From Deltaproteobacteria bacterium (GTDB lineage: Bacteria > Desulfobacterota > Dissulfuribacteria > Dissulfuribacterales > QOAL01), in assembly GCA_026991135.1 (NCBI GenBank), contig JALXCD010000109.1:12284-50943 (forward strand): a stretch of 38,660 nucleotides of DNA, given 5' to 3'. Below the pieces are notes generated by a model, which did no database searches, was not told the origin of the DNA, and saw nothing but the letters and a program-made list of their open reading frames with translations. The stretch's first letter is position 1; the number at the start of each line of letters is the position of its first letter. A program made the position numbers and the translations under genes. Below are positions 28,874 through 38,214 of the stretch, in pieces.

Positions 28874-28946
28874 GGGGATGTAGCTCAGTTGGGAGAGCAC
28901 CACGTTCGCAACGTGGGAGTCGGGGGTTCAAATCCCCCCATCTCCA
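28874..28946 (+). tRNA. tRNA-Ala, anticodon CGC
   Basis: A 73-nt cloverleaf. The acceptor GGGGATG/CATCTCC has the G3-U70 wobble that identifies alanine tRNAs. The D arm is TAGCTCAGTTGGGAGAGC, the anticodon stem CCACG/CGTGG has loop TTCGCAA (anticodon CGC, reads GCG), and the T arm is GGGGG TTCAAAT CCCCC. The discriminator is A; CCA is not encoded, as the sequence continues AAAAT. It lies 20 bp after rodA and at the edge of the accessory block. Confidence 0.97.
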
Positions 28947-29038: not shown

Positions 29039-30115
29039 TCACTTTTCATTTTGCTGGATAGACCGTACACTAAGTTTTTCCAGGATCAATTCATCTAGCC
29101 TTTTACCAGTACCTGGAACCTCGTTTCCATTTTTGTCTTTTCTAACGCCTATGCGATGAGAATTAATGCAGGTCTCCCAACTATTTGGATCAGCCGGAAG
29201 CGGATGCCGAGTACACCCAAAACCTGCAACAATGCATGGTGGCCCTGGATGCTGACAGGAATATTTCGGGTTGAATTCGCCCAAAGTGTCAGGGTGATAA
29301 AATTGACGCGTTATGGATGTGCCATAATGGCCCTCCCGGCAGAGACAATCCAAAAACGATCGCGGGAGACTGATATTCATTTTTTTTAAAACAGCTTGTT
29401 GCTTTTTATCACTAAGCCCGCTAAGCATTTCAATAACGATTTGACCTGGTTTTTTTACCCCTTGTGTTTTTTTTGTTTTTGTTGGCGCAGATGGGGTTTG
29501 AGAAGATATTTTTGGTGTGTTTTTTGTTTTTGAAGAATTAGGATGTGAAAATTTGGAATAGCTATCAGTAGAATAGTATAATCTAATACGATATTCTAAC
29601 TTATCCATTGTTGTTTCCTGCATTTTTTCAGAGATTCTCGATGGATCGCGGTAATATCTGACTTTAACCAATTTTTGGGTAAGAGAAAGCTCTCCAAGTT
29701 TAATGCTAAAATTCTTATTCCAATAATATCTTAGTTTGGCCAAGTGGTTTTGACATCTTCTAAATCTTTCTTCTGCAACTTCCAATTTGTTCCGCAATTG
29801 GTTTACCTCCTGCTGCCTAGAATTGCGTGAAACAACACCACTATTATACGCATCAATATCATTTCTGATTTCATTTATCTGTTTTTCCTGAGTTCTTATA
29901 CATTCCTGTGTCTCTTTATAGTCTTTATACAACCGCCAAGCCCACTCGCCTTCTTTGTTCACAAAAACGGGAACCTTGTGCAATGACCTTAAAACAGGAC
30001 CATTTATATTTTTGGCATAAGCTAAAGTTGGTGCGATTAAAAAAACAACATAAAGTATAGATATAATAAACGTATAAAGTTGGATATAATGTTGTATTTT
30101 AAAACGATTAATCAT
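29039..30115 (-). CDS. Exported protein of unknown function with Cys-rich C-terminal domain
   Basis: A 358-residue protein I do not recognise. The N-terminus has a membrane/signal segment (about residues 14-34, IISILYVVFLIAPTLAYA, with AYA-K as a possible signal peptidase site). A helical coiled-coil-like region (about 60-125, TQEKQINEIRNDIDAYN), a Ser/Thr/Lys-rich linker (about 190-225) and a compact C-terminal part (about 245-340) with six cysteines follow, including CLCREGHYG, SCQHPGPPCIVAGFGC and WETCINSHR. The cysteines suggest a disulfide-bonded or metal-binding periplasmic domain. It is downstream of the triple-repeat gene on the same strand after a 104-bp gap and may share its operon. 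Confidence 0.75.
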   Translation of the reverse strand: MINRFKIQHYIQLYTFIISILYVVFLIAPTLAYAKNINGPVLRSLHKVPVFVNKEGEWAWRLYKDYKETQECIRTQEKQINEIRNDIDAYNSGVVSRNSRQQEVNQLRNKLEVAEERFRRCQNHLAKLRYYWNKNFSIKLGELSLTQKLVKVRYYRDPSRISEKMQETTMDKLEYRIRLYYSTDSYSKFSHPNSSKTKNTPKISSQTPSAPTKTKKTQGVKKPGQIVIEMLSGLSDKKQQAVLKKMNISLPRSFLDCLCREGHYGTSITRQFYHPDTLGEFNPKYSCQHPGPPCIVAGFGCTRHPLPADPNSWETCINSHRIGVRKDKNGNEVPGTGKRLDELILEKLSVRSIQQNEK

Positions 30116-30219: not shown

Positions 30220-32565
30220 TCATTGATTTATTTGTTTTCTCATGTCATCAATAAATGCGTCAACATTAAATTCCTCATCATCCAGCAAACACCATCTCTG
30301 TATTCTAGTCATCCCTTCTGGTGCCACCCACTGCCCTGTAATCTTCTCAAGCTCCATATGTGCTCCACCATTTTGATATGAAGGATGGGCATACACCGTC
30401 ATGTAACCGCCATATAAAAACTTGTTCCAATAATCCCGTATCGATGGTCCGCCTGGAAGGCGGATGCGCAGCCACTTGTTACTGAAAAATTCCATAATGA
30501 TACGGCCATCCCAATGTTTCTTCACCCATTCACCATCAACCGTGCGGCTATATGCACCGTTGCCTCCAAGATCCAGTACGTAATTACCCTTGCGCGGACC
30601 CTTTTCAGCACGGATAAAACTGAAATACATGAACTTTTTAGGCCACATGGCAGGATATTTTCCATCGGCGAACATGACCTGAATGCCACTTGTGGCTTTG
30701 GGATCGAATTTCCAGGTCAGCCGGTAGAATGCCTGATGGATACGCCGATCCACATTAAAGGGCTTAATGGGTTTCGAAGATATTAGGCCACACTTTCCCC
30801 ACCAGTTCACGTTTGCTTTCACATCGGCCACCAGTTTTCTGTCCTGATAATGAGCGCATTGTTTTGCATCAAATCCGACAGCCGCCGGTTCGAACCATTC
30901 CCCTGGGCTGCCGTTGAAAAAGGTCTTGACCGGCAGAGGCGGCACTCCCGGTGCAGGTTTCGGTTCCTGAAGCGGAGCGCCTGGTCTGCGCCTGAGGGTG
31001 ATTTTGGAAAGCGCCATTTTTACCGGCTGGCCGGCCTTGTCTGGTTGAGAATAGACCATTAGGCGAATTCCTGTCCCCTCCTTTAACTCATTCCAAGCTA
31101 TAGGTTCTTGAGGTAGACCAGGCGCCTGGAATATCATCCCTACTGGGGTCAGGTGAATAAGCAGGCTTTTTGGTGCATCGGGGGGCGTAATTACGTCAAA
31201 AATCGTTTTTTTGAATAAATCTTTTGTCAGCGTAGCGTGAGCTCGACCGTCTACTGTTTTGCGCCAGTGAAAAATAAGACTGGGGTAACCAGGGTCGTTT
31301 CCATTTATGACACCATGCCTAATAAAAGCAACAGTAAATCCCGTAGTACGGACAGGATCAAAGCTAAACATTAAGGTCTGTTCCGCCCCTTTCCCGAAAT
31401 TGTCCAGCCATACCAGCGGTTGCGGAGAACAGATGCCCACCATCCCCCACCAAGACTTTGGTGGTACCTCCACTACTAGGCCATCCTCTGAAAGACGGGC
31501 GTGACGGGAAAAATCGCCACCGGCCGCATTGTATCTGCTCCATAACCGTCCCAGACGCCCATTTGCGAATAGTGTCAGTTCATTTTCTTGTAACAGGAAG
31601 GCATCAGGTTCGGGTAGCTTTTCCCATGGAAGTTCCTCTAAAAGTATATCTTTTAGCGCCAGATGGGCTGGTTTACCTGCCTTTGGTGCATGAGCGAGCA
31701 CCAATATTCTGAAAGCCGAATGAACAGCTTCGTCTGGCATTACACCTTGTAATAAGAGCCTATCTTTTTGATCCCTTACAACAATCTCTCCATCCGGGAA
31801 CCGCAAAACCTGTAATTTAGCAAGGCTTCCAGGAGCAATAAATAGGGAATCTACTTTTTCCCGCCTGACAAACAAACTCAGTTCTTGTTTATCGGCCTGT
31901 TTTCCCAAGCCGATCCTGAATTCATGTGCCCACCATTCATCCTGCTGATTGTGCGAAGACTGAGGCACGAAAGAGATGACATAGCCATCATCCGCTCTTG
32001 ACAATAGAGAGAATGTAAGTTTTTGTACCCTTTTGGAAGATGCTAGTAGCAGAGGCACTCTCGAAGCAATACCTGTTTTTCCCCAATTGTTTCCAGCGGG
32101 AACTTCGACCTCCAACACCCCTTTTTTGATTTTTGCAAATTTTTTGAAGTTCCCTCCGGCTGAGGCATAGGGTTGCCAGCTATCGGTCATCTGACCCTGG
32201 AACAACCACCGTTGGGAAGCAGGTTTTGATGTGGAAGATTTGGCGTTAAAAAAAAGATTGCGCAAGGCCTTAAGTCGCTTCAGCCTATCATCACGCTCGG
32301 GTAGTGGTTGAATTCGCTGAGCGGCTTCCAGTGCCTTTATAGCCGCATCAATATCGTCGTCTATTATCGCCTGCTTTACCTTCTCCATGTAACAATTCAC
32401 ATCATTACCACAAAAATCCGCTGCTGCGACCTTTATGGCCAAGAATGCATGGAAAAAGATAATCACGATTCCCATTTTTATTGAAAAAGCGAAACAAGTG
32501 TGCAGTGGTACTAGTTTTATCCCTACTAGTTTATGTCCTCGGTAAAAAACATTTGATTGTTTCAT
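30220..32565 (-). CDS. Large exported protein with three internal beta-rich repeats
   Basis: A 781-residue protein of unknown function. A hydrophobic segment (about residues 31-48, ending KVAAAD) looks like a signal peptide with a long n-region from ATG 32565 (AAAGG upstream); ATG 32475 would give a conventional signal peptide but no Shine-Dalgarno. A helical hairpin (about 50-105) with two cysteines follows. Then come three related modules of about 190-200 residues (about 119-312, 330-525, 547-745), each opening with W..Y.A.GG.F or similar, then a L.VEVP-like strand, an NWWGK.GI.S/WWGMVGICS motif, and closing with a MALSKITL-like strand. The pattern suggests lectin- or LamG-like beta sandwiches. 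DNA is visibly more GC-rich than the flanking core genes, hinting at transfer. Confidence 0.8.
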   Translation of the reverse strand: MKQSNVFYRGHKLVGIKLVPLHTCFAFSIKMGIVIIFFHAFLAIKVAAADFCGNDVNCYMEKVKQAIIDDDIDAAIKALEAAQRIQPLPERDDRLKRLKALRNLFFNAKSSTSKPASQRWLFQGQMTDSWQPYASAGGNFKKFAKIKKGVLEVEVPAGNNWGKTGIASRVPLLLASSKRVQKLTFSLLSRADDGYVISFVPQSSHNQQDEWWAHEFRIGLGKQADKQELSLFVRREKVDSLFIAPGSLAKLQVLRFPDGEIVVRDQKDRLLLQGVMPDEAVHSAFRILVLAHAPKAGKPAHLALKDILLEELPWEKLPEPDAFLLQENELTLFANGRLGRLWSRYNAAGGDFSRHARLSEDGLVVEVPPKSWWGMVGICSPQPLVWLDNFGKGAEQTLMFSFDPVRTTGFTVAFIRHGVINGNDPGYPSLIFHWRKTVDGRAHATLTKDLFKKTIFDVITPPDAPKSLLIHLTPVGMIFQAPGLPQEPIAWNELKEGTGIRLMVYSQPDKAGQPVKMALSKITLRRRPGAPLQEPKPAPGVPPLPVKTFFNGSPGEWFEPAAVGFDAKQCAHYQDRKLVADVKANVNWWGKCGLISSKPIKPFNVDRRIHQAFYRLTWKFDPKATSGIQVMFADGKYPAMWPKKFMYFSFIRAEKGPRKGNYVLDLGGNGAYSRTVDGEWVKKHWDGRIIMEFFSNKWLRIRLPGGPSIRDYWNKFLYGGYMTVYAHPSYQNGGAHMELEKITGQWVAPEGMTRIQRWCLLDDEEFNVDAFIDDMRKQINQ

Positions 32566-32954: not shown

Positions 32955-34289
32955 TCAGTCCACGCAGATACCCATAGTTTTTCGCGACAAGCGAGGCATG
33001 TTTTCTTCAGCCAAAACCTCGATCTTTCCATTTGGAGTCACCTGATAAAGCATTCTCTGGGGTTTATGTGTGCCACAACCGAATCTATGTTTTTTGACAG
33101 CAAAAACCAGGTAATCTCCATCAAATTGCGCTGCACTGAAGACCCTAGTGTCGGACAACAACGAATGAACCAAAAGCATGGCCTTGTTTGCCGTGTTTAC
33201 GGTTCCAATCCATTGGCGCAGGGCATCCGCCGTGCGAATCTCTGTGCCGTTCTTGTCAACCAGCCGGTAATAGATACCGACCATTCCGCCTTCCCGTCGC
33301 AGGTATTCGTCATCTTCACTTCCTTCCCCCCTGGCAGGGATAAAGGTCTTTTCCCTAAGGCCAAAAAATTTCATAAGTTCCTTATTACCTGGGTAAGGTT
33401 GCCACTTCTGTATAGACAATGTCAACAGCACATTTTCTGCAGCCGTGTCCCATTTCCAGTCCACGCCGTCCATAGGGGGAGCCTTTTCCTTCTTCCACGT
33501 TCCCTGCCGGCAGACAAAATACCCTTTCTTGAGACAATCGACTTTGTCCCCGTATTGGAGGCACTGGAGGAATTCACCCTCTTTATAGGTCCACTTTGAA
33601 TTTGTACAATGAACTTTGGAAATACTGTCAGTGGAATCGGCCAGCTCACCAAGACGAACGGATGCTTTTTGCCCGCCTCCATCTCCCCCAAATCCATACA
33701 CCTCCACTTCCCTAAAATGTAAAAAGTTCCTATCCTGAAGCTGGAGTCTTACAAATCGTGCCCTGATCCGATCAATGGGCACGTCCAGCTTGTCAAAATT
33801 ACGCCCGTCATGACTGTAAACCGTCTTCCAGTTGTTTCCGTCATTGGAGACCTTTATCTCGAGAGTTGCGATCTTTTCACCGCAGCAGTCCACCCTGTTA
33901 TATATCCTTACCAGGGTTAGGGCATAAACCTTGCCAAGGTCAACCTGCCACCAGGGAGACTGCTCCATTGCCGTGTGGACCAGTCCGTAAGGGGTAACCG
34001 ATGGAGGATTGATGACGCCATCAACACCAAGATGTGGCCCCTGATCCACCCCTGTACCTCTATAAACACTGCTCTGGGTGGCTGGCTTGCCTCTGGCTAA
34101 ATTGACTGGTTTTTTCGAACCGGGTTTTGAAACCTTGACAATCTTACGCTCCTTGAAAAAATACGCCCCTTCCGATGCGAAAGAATATGTAGAAGAAAGC
34201 ATAAATATGACCATAAATACAACAATTGTTACATAACTAGACCACTTCATTTTTCCCTGAATGTGTATTTTTTCAGTGGATAATTTCAT
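32955..34289 (-). CDS. Exported discoidin (F5/8 type C) domain protein with Cys cluster
   Basis: A 444-residue secreted protein. The signal peptide runs to about residue 39 (SSTYSFA). An F5/8 type C/discoidin galactose-binding-like domain spans 63-200, opening VNLARGKPATQSS and containing PWWQVDLGKVYALTLVRIYNR and VSNDGNNWKTVY. A short Cys cluster (C228, C243, C252, C260, in KEGEFLQCLQYGDKVDCLKKGYFVC) and a C-terminal domain with no assignment (about 275-444) follow. F5/8C domains bind glycans or phospholipids, so surface carbohydrate binding is the family-based guess. Two starts are plausible: ATG 34289 (AAAGGGG upstream) and ATG 34250 (AGGGA upstream). It is the most upstream gene of the exported block. 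Confidence 0.85.
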   Translation of the reverse strand: MKLSTEKIHIQGKMKWSSYVTIVVFMVIFMLSSTYSFASEGAYFFKERKIVKVSKPGSKKPVNLARGKPATQSSVYRGTGVDQGPHLGVDGVINPPSVTPYGLVHTAMEQSPWWQVDLGKVYALTLVRIYNRVDCCGEKIATLEIKVSNDGNNWKTVYSHDGRNFDKLDVPIDRIRARFVRLQLQDRNFLHFREVEVYGFGGDGGGQKASVRLGELADSTDSISKVHCTNSKWTYKEGEFLQCLQYGDKVDCLKKGYFVCRQGTWKKEKAPPMDGVDWKWDTAAENVLLTLSIQKWQPYPGNKELMKFFGLREKTFIPARGEGSEDDEYLRREGGMVGIYYRLVDKNGTEIRTADALRQWIGTVNTANKAMLLVHSLLSDTRVFSAAQFDGDYLVFAVKKHRFGCGTHKPQRMLYQVTPNGKIEVLAEENMPRLSRKTMGICVD

Positions 34290-34736
34290 AATAGCCCCTT
34301 TCTTGAATTAGCCTTTGAAATTTTCAAATCTTTCTTTGAAAAAGTCCTGTGGTTCAAGGACTGGACTTTCTCAATAAAAAATCACTTTCCACCAATTAAT
34401 GGCCTATCAAAAGCGTCCATTTGCCTATTAAGTTTATCCCCATAAGCGTTTATCGAAAAAAAGGAATAACTTAAGAAAAAATGAAAGATAGCAATGGGTT
34501 TCAAAAATAAATCCAGTAAATGGGGCTTGAGTTCTTGACCTTTAGGGAAAGAAATGCAACTGGCAACGGACACTCAAACCGCCATAAACAGGCGCCACTG
34601 CCCTTTCAATTTTCCAAAGCGTTATATCCACTCCTTTTAGCCAAAAAGAAAAGGCGAGGTGACAGGAAATGGCCTTAAGCAATTGGGCCTGTGGAGTGAA
34701 ATTTTAATTTCCCCAACATTTTCCAATCTAAATTTG

Positions 34737-34774
34737 TTTTTAGTTGACTATCTAATTATTGTCAACAGTATAAT
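34737..34774. promoter_or_regulatory. Divergent promoter candidates over an operator-like inverted repeat
   Basis: GTTGAC (34743-34748) and GTCAAC (34761-34766) form an inverted repeat, with AT/AT also matching inside. On the minus strand TTGACA (34760-34765) is followed after 17 bp by TAAAAA (34737-34742), the same architecture as the rpmH candidate promoter. It points toward the discoidin gene. On the plus strand TTGACT (34744-34749) and TATAAT (34769-34774) are 19 bp apart, pointing into the 3' side of norD. A dimeric regulator could block both. Confidence 0.45.
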
Positions 34775-34958: not shown

Positions 34959-37322
34959 TTATGTGGTCAAAACCCTGTATATTTCCGGTACCCGCTTATG
35001 AAGCAGCCTTACATCAGGGACAAATATATAGTTTGCAGCCCCATAAAGCCTTGGCAGGTAACTTCTTGCCTCCTTGTCAATGGTGATGCAAAATGGTCTT
35101 ACTCCATACTGCCGTGCCTCAAAAAGGGCCATTCTGGTATCCTCTATGGCATAGGGTCCTTTGTATTCATCATAGTCCTCTGGCTTCCCGTCGCTTAGAA
35201 CCAAAAGTATCTTGATCCTGGCCTCCACTTCCTTGAGCCTATTTGTTGAATGTCTTATGGCTGGCCCCATCCTGGTATAATCCTTGGCGGTAATTCCAAT
35301 AATCCGTTCCTTTACCGTGGTAGTTAACCCTTCATTAAAATCCTTTATGACAAAGTATTGGCAGCCTGTCCGTCTCATACCGGAAAATCCGTAGATTCCG
35401 TATTGATCCCCAACAAGTTCAATGGCATGAGTTAAAAGGACAAGGGATTCCTTGATGGCTTGATTTACCCAGCCCTCTGTTGAGGCGGACATATCAACCA
35501 AAAAAAGGACCGCAATATCTCTTTTGGCCTGATTCAATCTATAATAGAGCCTTTCAGTAGGACTTAGCCTTGCCATAAGGTCTGTATATGCCTCAACATA
35601 TGCGTCTATATCTATTTCTTGCCCGTCCTTTTGCCTCTTTTCACACCTGAAATCCTGACGCATAAGCTCGAACTGTCTTCTTAGGGTTTCCACCTGGCCC
35701 TTGTATTTTCTAAGGGTTGTCTCTATGAAATTTCCAGATGCCCTGCTCGAATGCATCTCTTTTACAGTGCACCAGTTTTCCCGGTAATTTCCCCGCCTAA
35801 AATCCCATTCCGGGTAACTGAAGAATAAAAAGGCAGGCCCTTCATCCTTTTTGGAATCCAGTAAAAGGGTGGGGTCATAAAGACCTGTAGCCAGATCTAG
35901 GGTGGTTGAGACATAGGAGCTTGGAATCCTTCCAAGGTCCTTCATTATCTCCCTTCCAACCTTTTCAAGTTTTTCTAAAAGGTCCCTATTTTCGTGAAGG
36001 GTAATGTGTTCACCATCTAAAAAACAATCCTTTTTGTCCCTGCAAAGGCCCTTTTGAAACACCATTGCCAGTGCTGACTCCATATCGTCTGCCGTGAAAG
36101 GCATATTTTTAAGCTCTTCTGGGCCTTTCTCCCTGTCTTTTTTAATTGATCCTTGGCCACGGGACTTTACAATGAGGGCTCCGAGGATTTCGATAAATCT
36201 CTTTTCAAGCCTCTTTCGTCTTTCTAAAAGCCTTATCTCCAGCCTTGAAAGGTCTATTGTGCCCACATAAAGAAAAAGGTCCTTAAAGGGCATAAGATCA
36301 AGGCTGTAAGGGCCTTCGAGTAAAGATTTTAAGGTCTTAAGGGAGTCAATATTGGTGCTTTCCCTGTCAAGAAGCCTTTTAACATGAGCTCTTAACAGTC
36401 TATCTTCAGGAAGAAATTGGGAATCGTAGTCATTTAAGATAAAACGGGCAATTTGAGAAATGGCGCCTTTTTCTTTAAAAGACCCCTTTAAGGTGATTAG
36501 CCTGGATAGGTTCTTTTTAAAGGATGAAATATCCCTTTTAAATCCATTAAAGTCTTCTTCCAGCCTTTTTTCTATCCTTATCGTCTCTATTACAGAGTAA
36601 AGGGTTAAGATATCAAGCTTTTTATACCTTTCAGAAAGGATATTCAGTAAGTGGACAATACCAGGTCTTTCTATTTCATTTTTAAGTTCTTCCAGTTCGG
36701 GAAAAACCTCCATTAAAAGGCCCTTTGGGGCAAGAAAGCTATTAAGGCGTATCTGGCCAATCTTATGGATGGCGCACACCTTTAAAAAAAGGATGTTTTC
36801 CTCAAAACTTTTGAACCTTGAAAAGGTCCTTGGAAGATAAATGGTTTCGCTGTCTGTAAAGGGCACGTCTGAAGGCTCAAAGCAAATGGCCCTTTCCGTA
36901 AGCCCGGAGGCCAGAATGGATAGCTTTGCAGCCACGTCTTCAAGGGTTGCAACACGTCTTGAATTTCCAAAGGAAAGGGCGGTTTCCTGGGGCCTTGATA
37001 AAAACTCAGTGGCAGGATGAAGCCCCTGGGCCTCATATATTGAAAGGGCCTTTGTAACCCACTCTTCCATCTGGTCCAGATCAAGATACTTGAGGGCCTT
37101 TGAGCAATTTTCCATGAAGCTAAAGGCCAAAAGGTCAGATACCGAGCCTGAAATGAGCCTTACAAACCTAAGGATCGGCCCTATCTTTTCATTTGGAATC
37201 GGCCTAAGAAATTCAACGGCATTTTCAACATGACATGAGCCTATTGTATCGGTGTAAAAGATCTGGATGAGGGCATTTTTAAGGGCCTCTTCACGCCTTT
37301 TTTCCTTGGGAGTAATGGTCAT
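34959..37322 (-). CDS. NorD/CbbO-type VWA-domain protein
   Basis: A 787-residue protein. A long helical N-terminal part (about 1-600) is followed by a C-terminal von Willebrand A domain (about 604-787). The MIDAS motif DMSAST is at 610-615, with a TRMGPAIRH segment and LLVLSDGKPEDYDEYKGPYAIEDTR, the hallmark of the NorD/CbbO group. These proteins work with a CbbQ/NorQ/MoxR AAA+ hexamer as an activase: CbbO docks on Rubisco and NorD helps mature nitric oxide reductase. No Rubisco, nor or nir gene is in the window, so the client is unknown and I give no symbol. It starts 2 bp after the AAA+ gene. The N-terminal part contains a Cys pair CRDKKDC around residue 425. Confidence 0.88.
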   Translation of the reverse strand: MTITPKEKRREEALKNALIQIFYTDTIGSCHVENAVEFLRPIPNEKIGPILRFVRLISGSVSDLLAFSFMENCSKALKYLDLDQMEEWVTKALSIYEAQGLHPATEFLSRPQETALSFGNSRRVATLEDVAAKLSILASGLTERAICFEPSDVPFTDSETIYLPRTFSRFKSFEENILFLKVCAIHKIGQIRLNSFLAPKGLLMEVFPELEELKNEIERPGIVHLLNILSERYKKLDILTLYSVIETIRIEKRLEEDFNGFKRDISSFKKNLSRLITLKGSFKEKGAISQIARFILNDYDSQFLPEDRLLRAHVKRLLDRESTNIDSLKTLKSLLEGPYSLDLMPFKDLFLYVGTIDLSRLEIRLLERRKRLEKRFIEILGALIVKSRGQGSIKKDREKGPEELKNMPFTADDMESALAMVFQKGLCRDKKDCFLDGEHITLHENRDLLEKLEKVGREIMKDLGRIPSSYVSTTLDLATGLYDPTLLLDSKKDEGPAFLFFSYPEWDFRRGNYRENWCTVKEMHSSRASGNFIETTLRKYKGQVETLRRQFELMRQDFRCEKRQKDGQEIDIDAYVEAYTDLMARLSPTERLYYRLNQAKRDIAVLFLVDMSASTEGWVNQAIKESLVLLTHAIELVGDQYGIYGFSGMRRTGCQYFVIKDFNEGLTTTVKERIIGITAKDYTRMGPAIRHSTNRLKEVEARIKILLVLSDGKPEDYDEYKGPYAIEDTRMALFEARQYGVRPFCITIDKEARSYLPRLYGAANYIFVPDVRLLHKRVPEIYRVLTT

Positions 37323-37324
37323 GG

Positions 37325-38134
37325 TTAAAAGACTGCCTTTATCATCTCTTTTAAACCGTTTAATAGCTCTTCATCATCGGTAAGGGGCTGACAGATTGCA
37401 ACCTCACAGGCAAGATTCACATCAATACCAGATTTTATAAGCTTTCCTGCATGGATTAAAAGCCTTGTGCTTGCACCCTCTTGAAGGCCCTGCTCCTTTA
37501 GCCTTCTTGTCATTCTTCCAAGCTTTACAAGATTTGCCGAAAGCTCATGGTCAATCCCTGCCTCTTTCTCAACGATCTTTTTTTCATGCTCTTCATCGGA
37601 GTATCTGAAATCTATGGCAAGAAATCTCTGTCTTGTGCTGGGCTTAAGGTCCTTGAGGACGCTTTGATAGCCTGGGTTATAAGAGATTACAAGCATGAAT
37701 TCCCTTGGGGCATCAAGAATTACTCCAAGCTTTTCCATGGGAAGTTTTCTCCTGTCATCTGCCAGGGGATGAATGACAACCGTGGTGTCCTTTCTTGCCT
37801 CCACCACTTCATCAAGATAACATATTCCCCCATTTTTTACCGCAAGGGTTAGGGGGCCGTCCATCCAGATTGTCTCGCCCCCTTTTATAAGATAACGCCC
37901 CACAAGATCACTTGTGGAAAGATCGTCATGGCAAGATACGGTAAAAAGAGGCCGTTTCAGCCTCCAGGCCATATATTCCATAAACCTCGTCTTTCCACAG
38001 CCGGTCGGCCCTTTCAAAAGTAGCGGAAGGCAGTGCCTAAAGGCGATCTCAGCAAGCTCAATCTCATTACCAAGGGGAAGGTAAAAGGGTTCCCTTGTTA
38101 TAAAAAAGCTTGAAAGTTTCTGCTCAGACTCCAT
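37325..38134 (-). CDS. CbbQ/NorQ/NirQ-type AAA+ ATPase
   Basis: A 269-residue MoxR-class AAA+ ATPase. It has Walker A GPTGCGKTRF, the CHDDLSTSDLVGRYLI segment typical of CbbQ/NorQ, Walker B ICYLDEVVEARKD, a sensor-1-region SYNPGYQS and arginine-rich ASTRLLIHAG. The C-terminal CbbQ_C-type region ends LTDDEELLNGLKEMIK. The hexamer remodels client enzymes together with the VWA partner encoded immediately downstream. The track starts at 38197, but ATG 38134 has AAGGGG 6 nt upstream and gives the usual N-terminus, so I use it. It is divergent from the 90-residue gene, with a shared 114-bp control region. Confidence 0.92.
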   Translation of the reverse strand: MESEQKLSSFFITREPFYLPLGNEIELAEIAFRHCLPLLLKGPTGCGKTRFMEYMAWRLKRPLFTVSCHDDLSTSDLVGRYLIKGGETIWMDGPLTLAVKNGGICYLDEVVEARKDTTVVIHPLADDRRKLPMEKLGVILDAPREFMLVISYNPGYQSVLKDLKPSTRQRFLAIDFRYSDEEHEKKIVEKEAGIDHELSANLVKLGRMTRRLKEQGLQEGASTRLLIHAGKLIKSGIDVNLACEVAICQPLTDDEELLNGLKEMIKAVF

Positions 38135-38185
38135 TTGTGCCCCTTTTGACTTATTACTTTTTAGATAAAATTTATCATATTTATA

Positions 38186-38214
38186 TTGATTTTTCAATAA
38201 AAAAGAATTATAAT
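38186..38214 (+). promoter_or_regulatory. Strong sigma70-type promoter for the 90-residue gene
   Basis: TTGATT (38186-38191) and a perfect TATAAT (38209-38214) are separated by exactly 17 bp. The expected start near 38221 leaves a short leader with AAGGAGG (38237-38243) 5 nt before ATG 38249. It is the best promoter/RBS combination in the window. A weaker reverse promoter (TTGAAA, then TAAATT after 17 bp) for the AAA+ gene overlaps it. Confidence 0.65.

Follow-up and report, generated by a model that had tools for sequence, protein, structure and literature searches.

The stretch of DNA analysed here (the window; 38,660 nucleotides) carries a minus-strand open reading frame at positions 30220 to 32565 that begins with ATG and encodes a 781-aa protein, as a sequence-only reading of the same DNA had claimed. 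On the left side of this gene, mreB, mreC, a 162-aa gene in the mreD position, PBP2, and rodA are followed by tRNA-Ala(CGC) on the plus strand (28874 to 28946), a conserved border of the cluster. The other border is formed by a VWA protein gene (34959 to 37322, minus strand), which pairs with a gene for a CbbQ/NorQ-type AAA+ ATPase (37325 to 38197, minus strand). Three genes between tRNA-Ala and VWA share the minus strand; these encode a 444-aa exported-type protein (32955 to 34289), the 781-aa protein, and, next downstream, a 358-aa orphan protein (29039 to 30115). A pattern scan listed no minus-strand terminators in the gaps between the three genes, so their co-transcription is possible. The 358-aa protein is hydrophobic at its N-terminus and includes a coiled-coil-like region, and no relatives were found in 59 related genomes. 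Its C-terminal part is rich in Cys.

The VWA/CbbQ pair at this border belongs to the same kind as the MoxR-VWA pairs NorQ/NorD and CbbQ/CbbO (PMC9976466). The VWA gene was present in 22 of 60 related genomes. Its flank was read in five congeners, where VWA is followed by a 2-oxoacid oxidoreductase-type operon and no exported cluster is found. Since the pair occurs order-wide without the exported cluster, it appears to be a neighbour and not evidently a component of the system.

The 781-aa protein is probably exported, presumably by the Sec route. Sequence reading and hydropathy suggest an N-terminal export signal at residues 1 to 50 (32416 to 32565, minus strand), with a basic start, a hydrophobic core at about residues 31 to 48 (mean hydropathy of 2.46 over residues 33 to 47), and AAADF at its end; its long n-region was counted against this reading. 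No lipobox was found at Cys-52. The mature protein has a pI of about 9.4. Residues 51 to 115 (32221 to 32415, minus strand) read as a short helical hairpin that contains the two N-terminal cysteines already pointed out from the sequence, Cys-52 and Cys-58, in a C-x5-C arrangement. This segment gave no significant match to TPR or any other profile in Pfam, its TPR-like appearance being visible by eye only. Kinship of the hairpin with the TPR region of a protein from the sister species, described below, was considered and rejected, as the similarity is at chance level.

The remainder of the protein is dominated by three modules delimited by repeat comparison on the minus strand: M1 (residues 116 to 322; 31600 to 32220), M2 (residues 323 to 540; 30946 to 31599), and M3 (residues 541 to 750; 30316 to 30945), the most divergent. 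All three are basic and contain many aromatic residues. The earlier claim that the three are related was borne out by pairwise Smith-Waterman comparisons against 1,000 shuffles (z-scores of 24 for M1-M2, 12 for M2-M3, and 6 for M1-M3) and by leave-one-out profiles, in which two modules recovered the third with E-values of 1.9e-13 for M1, 1.6e-17 for M2, and 6.7e-8 for M3; the best E-value among 3,000 shuffled controls was 0.06 or worse. Identity between the modules is just 24 to 30% or thereabouts, which marks the duplications as old, and a genome-wide search disclosed no paralogues elsewhere in the organism's own genome.

The motifs that the earlier reading had listed as shared are exact in M2 (GGDF, VEVP, WWGMVGICS, ALSKITL) and vary in the other modules: M1 has GGNF, VEVP, NWGKTGIAS, and ALKDILL, while M3 has GFDA, VADV, WWGKCGLIS, and ELEKIT. 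Consequently, neither GG.F nor VEVP nor WWG is common to all three. Alignment of the modules revealed 22 invariant columns that include W-G-x-x-G-x-x-S; a single acidic residue is among them, while Arg, His, and Tyr are missing. The W-G-x-x-G-x-x-S motif may represent a structural strand, which makes its tryptophans weak evidence for ligand contact.

To our reading, the fold of the modules is more familiar than their sequence. M2 was modelled by AlphaFold2 from an alignment of three rows (M1, M2, and M3), all from one protein, and the model reached a modest pLDDT of 62 and a pTM of 0.69. A Foldseek comparison of this model with the PDB returned 51 matches at E <= 0.001, the top one at 4.1e-6 with a TM-score of about 0.5. 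The matches listed comprise enzymes (PL7 alginate lyases and GH16-type glucanases), lectins (legume and Emp46), calreticulin, and multidomain enzymes, either glycosidases or sialidases, that carry a concanavalin A (ConA)-like domain. Among the viral models matched by M2, several bear the name ConA-like or LamG. For M3, the model is poor (pLDDT 48) and places strands at corresponding positions in the same order as in M2; its match list is mostly of the ConA-like superfamily, including DUF1080-type proteins, some CBMs and viral capsids also appear, and its best E-value of 1.4e-3 does not pass 1e-3. Taken as a statement on the fold alone, it is likely that the modules are ConA-like beta-sandwiches. 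The sequence-only reading had held that no fold family could be assigned and had proposed structure prediction of the single modules; the M2 model points to a ConA-like sandwich, which was among that reading's own suggestions, and the weaker M3 model leads mostly to the same superfamily.

At the sequence level the protein stands apart. Neither Pfam, NCBIfam, PHROGs, nor PDB sequences gave a significant match to the 781 aa, and no module scored above the curated cut-off for LamG or any other Pfam family. Related genomes were searched with the full protein and with profiles in overlapping sets of 99, 60, 395, and 46 genomes (more than 400 overall), and no credible relatives turned up among the eight congeners, at the level of family or class, or in the 395-genome sample of the phylum. 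A partial match in genome G171 (18 bits, with a stop inside) was treated as chance. Seeded scans of GTDB contigs, for which both the protein and the module alignment served as queries, yielded no confirmed relatives, and viral contigs, phages, and plasmids yielded none; the GTDB scans are less than fully sensitive, and orphan is used here for the collections searched, metagenomes lying outside them. No description of the triple-module architecture was found in the literature searched. Among the genomes searched, the triple-module gene is confined to one species. Thus, the earlier proposal of a new beta-sandwich family holds for the sequence, for which no relative was found in these collections, and probably fails for the fold itself, which the M2 model places in a known class; the modules would constitute a new sequence family within the ConA-like superfamily. 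The sequence match to a characterised enzyme or lectin family that had been named as counter-evidence was not found.

Comparison with the superfamily (PL7, GH16, L-type lectins, and DUF1080) illustrates the similarity in the predicted jellyroll, with two sheets and some 200 residues, and in the export-type context. In contrast, the modules have no detectable sequence similarity to these proteins and occur in tandem, three in a row after a leader segment with C-x5-C. Proteins with LamG-type repeats likewise are exported and carry tandem ConA-like beta-sandwich modules; however, the LamG Pfam model matches none of the modules here.

Because the best structural neighbours of M2 in the PDB are PL7 and GH16 enzymes and DUF1080-type proteins appear in the M3 match list, we considered whether the protein could be a divergent polysaccharide-active enzyme, in which at least one module is a hydrolase or lyase of GH16-, PL7-, or DUF1080-like type whose active site escapes recognition. 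A motif search revealed neither the GH16 catalytic motif E-x-D-x-(x)-E nor the PL7 motifs RxE(L/V/I/M), Q(I/V)H, and YxKxGxY in any module, although other active sites of the superfamily are only partly covered by it. The single acidic residue and the lack of Arg, His, and Tyr in the invariant columns also argue against catalysis, and tandem triplication suits binding better. An enzyme is therefore improbable.

The adjacent 444-aa protein is, by its sequence, a fucose lectin. Its F-type lectin domain at approximately residues 62 to 206 was recognised by the Pfam F5/8 type C model and aligns to FBP32 (3.5e-18), eel agglutinin (3.2e-12), and also Sm-hPAF. The fucose-binding motif of F-type lectins is given as H...RxDx4, with an H-to-R distance printed as 24 (PMC5712786). 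In the 444-aa protein the signature is intact as H-x26-R-V-D-CCGE-K, with adjacent cysteines. Both the H-to-R spacing and the adjacent CC are the same as in eel agglutinin when the two are aligned, so the signature residues correspond. The protein thereby shows the domain of about 140 aa with H..R-x-D-x4-R/K that is expected of an F-type lectin. The triple-module protein, unlike its neighbour, lacks the F-type fucose signature and is not an F-type lectin.

A weak match between M2 and the lectin region of the 444-aa protein (BLASTP E-value of 0.005 in a single pairwise comparison; score of 58, where shuffles averaged 33) could indicate that the modules diverged from galactose-binding-like (F5/8 type C) domains and are not ConA-like. 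Homology of the two regions was rejected, as the match is weak and mis-registered, with the WW motifs out of register. Module length (about 200 aa versus about 140), the lack of an F5/8 type C Pfam match in the modules, and the ConA-like top matches in Foldseek speak against this assignment as well, and we consider it highly improbable.

Our preferred reading, to which we assign a probability of roughly 0.5 as a whole, is that the 781-aa protein is a non-catalytic, multivalent, exported binder of glycans or matrix, built from three ConA-like modules and encoded beside a fucose lectin. The protein would leave the cell, probably by the Sec route, and its modules, with no recognisable catalytic centre, would together bind a polysaccharide or glycoprotein multivalently on the cell surface or within the matrix, possibly in joint action with the F-type lectin. 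Export, the final location, the carbohydrate ligand, and the joint action are what we infer. ConA-like folds also serve as structural, scaffold, or protein-binding domains, and thus the fold alone is no proof of sugar binding; it is the adjacent fucolectin gene that makes glycan binding by the modules more likely and marks the protein as a probable glycan binder of the cell surface, specific to this species. The use of such domains as scaffolds in other proteins, together with the presence of three lineage-specific exported-type proteins on a common strand and in a common neighbourhood, is compatible with a scaffold in the cell envelope, structural or for protein-protein contacts, in which the modules assemble with the 358-aa and 444-aa proteins without binding glycans. 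We consider this less likely, since the adjoining gene encodes a fucose lectin whose sugar signature is intact, which points to glycan recognition as a local theme.

The locus differs among relatives. The triple-module gene is missing from all eight congeners, among them the closest sister (G004), whose RodA is 97.6% identical. In G004 both the triple-module and the 358-aa genes are absent, and different exported proteins occupy the locus. One of these, incomplete at its recorded length of at least 1,437 aa (L027:3-4316), contains PKD, TPR, and F-type lectin domains and points towards VWA; its lectin domain is 85% identical over 137 aa to that of the 444-aa protein. The sequence following tRNA-Ala in G004 (L014:1672-1861) matches positions 34584 to 34771 of the window at 74%, and its orientation with respect to rodA is reversed. 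This match and the orientation of the G004 lectin protein fit one inversion of the tRNA-Ala-VWA block, with gene turnover and shuffling of lectin domains; as the two G004 pieces lie on separate contigs, the inversion itself is deduced. Inverted repeats at the cluster borders, as in phase inversion, were short, imperfect, and unconvincing, the sole pair near both cluster ends being 24 nt at 71%. It is doubtful, if conceivable, that the tRNA-Ala-VWA stretch is a fast-changing surface-recognition locus, an invertible block in which lectin-type domains are exchanged, and that the triple-module protein founds a new lectin family, with a ligand peculiar to the partner, host, or matrix of this species.

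Should the modules bind glycans, they would add to the ConA-like superfamily a sequence family that present libraries miss, and they would illustrate how adhesion-type genes turn over at the species level, the rest of the genus being without them. The impact would be modest because the fold and the general role are familiar. The bacterial F-type lectin domain common to the sister species, there in a different protein, offers a testable case of lectin domain shuffling. By eye, the G004 protein of at least 1,437 aa has a TSP1-like start, and it adjoins the same VWA/CbbQ pair. Near the G004 cluster, a further gene (L027:8005-9024) encodes a protein with two Lcl C-terminal domains.
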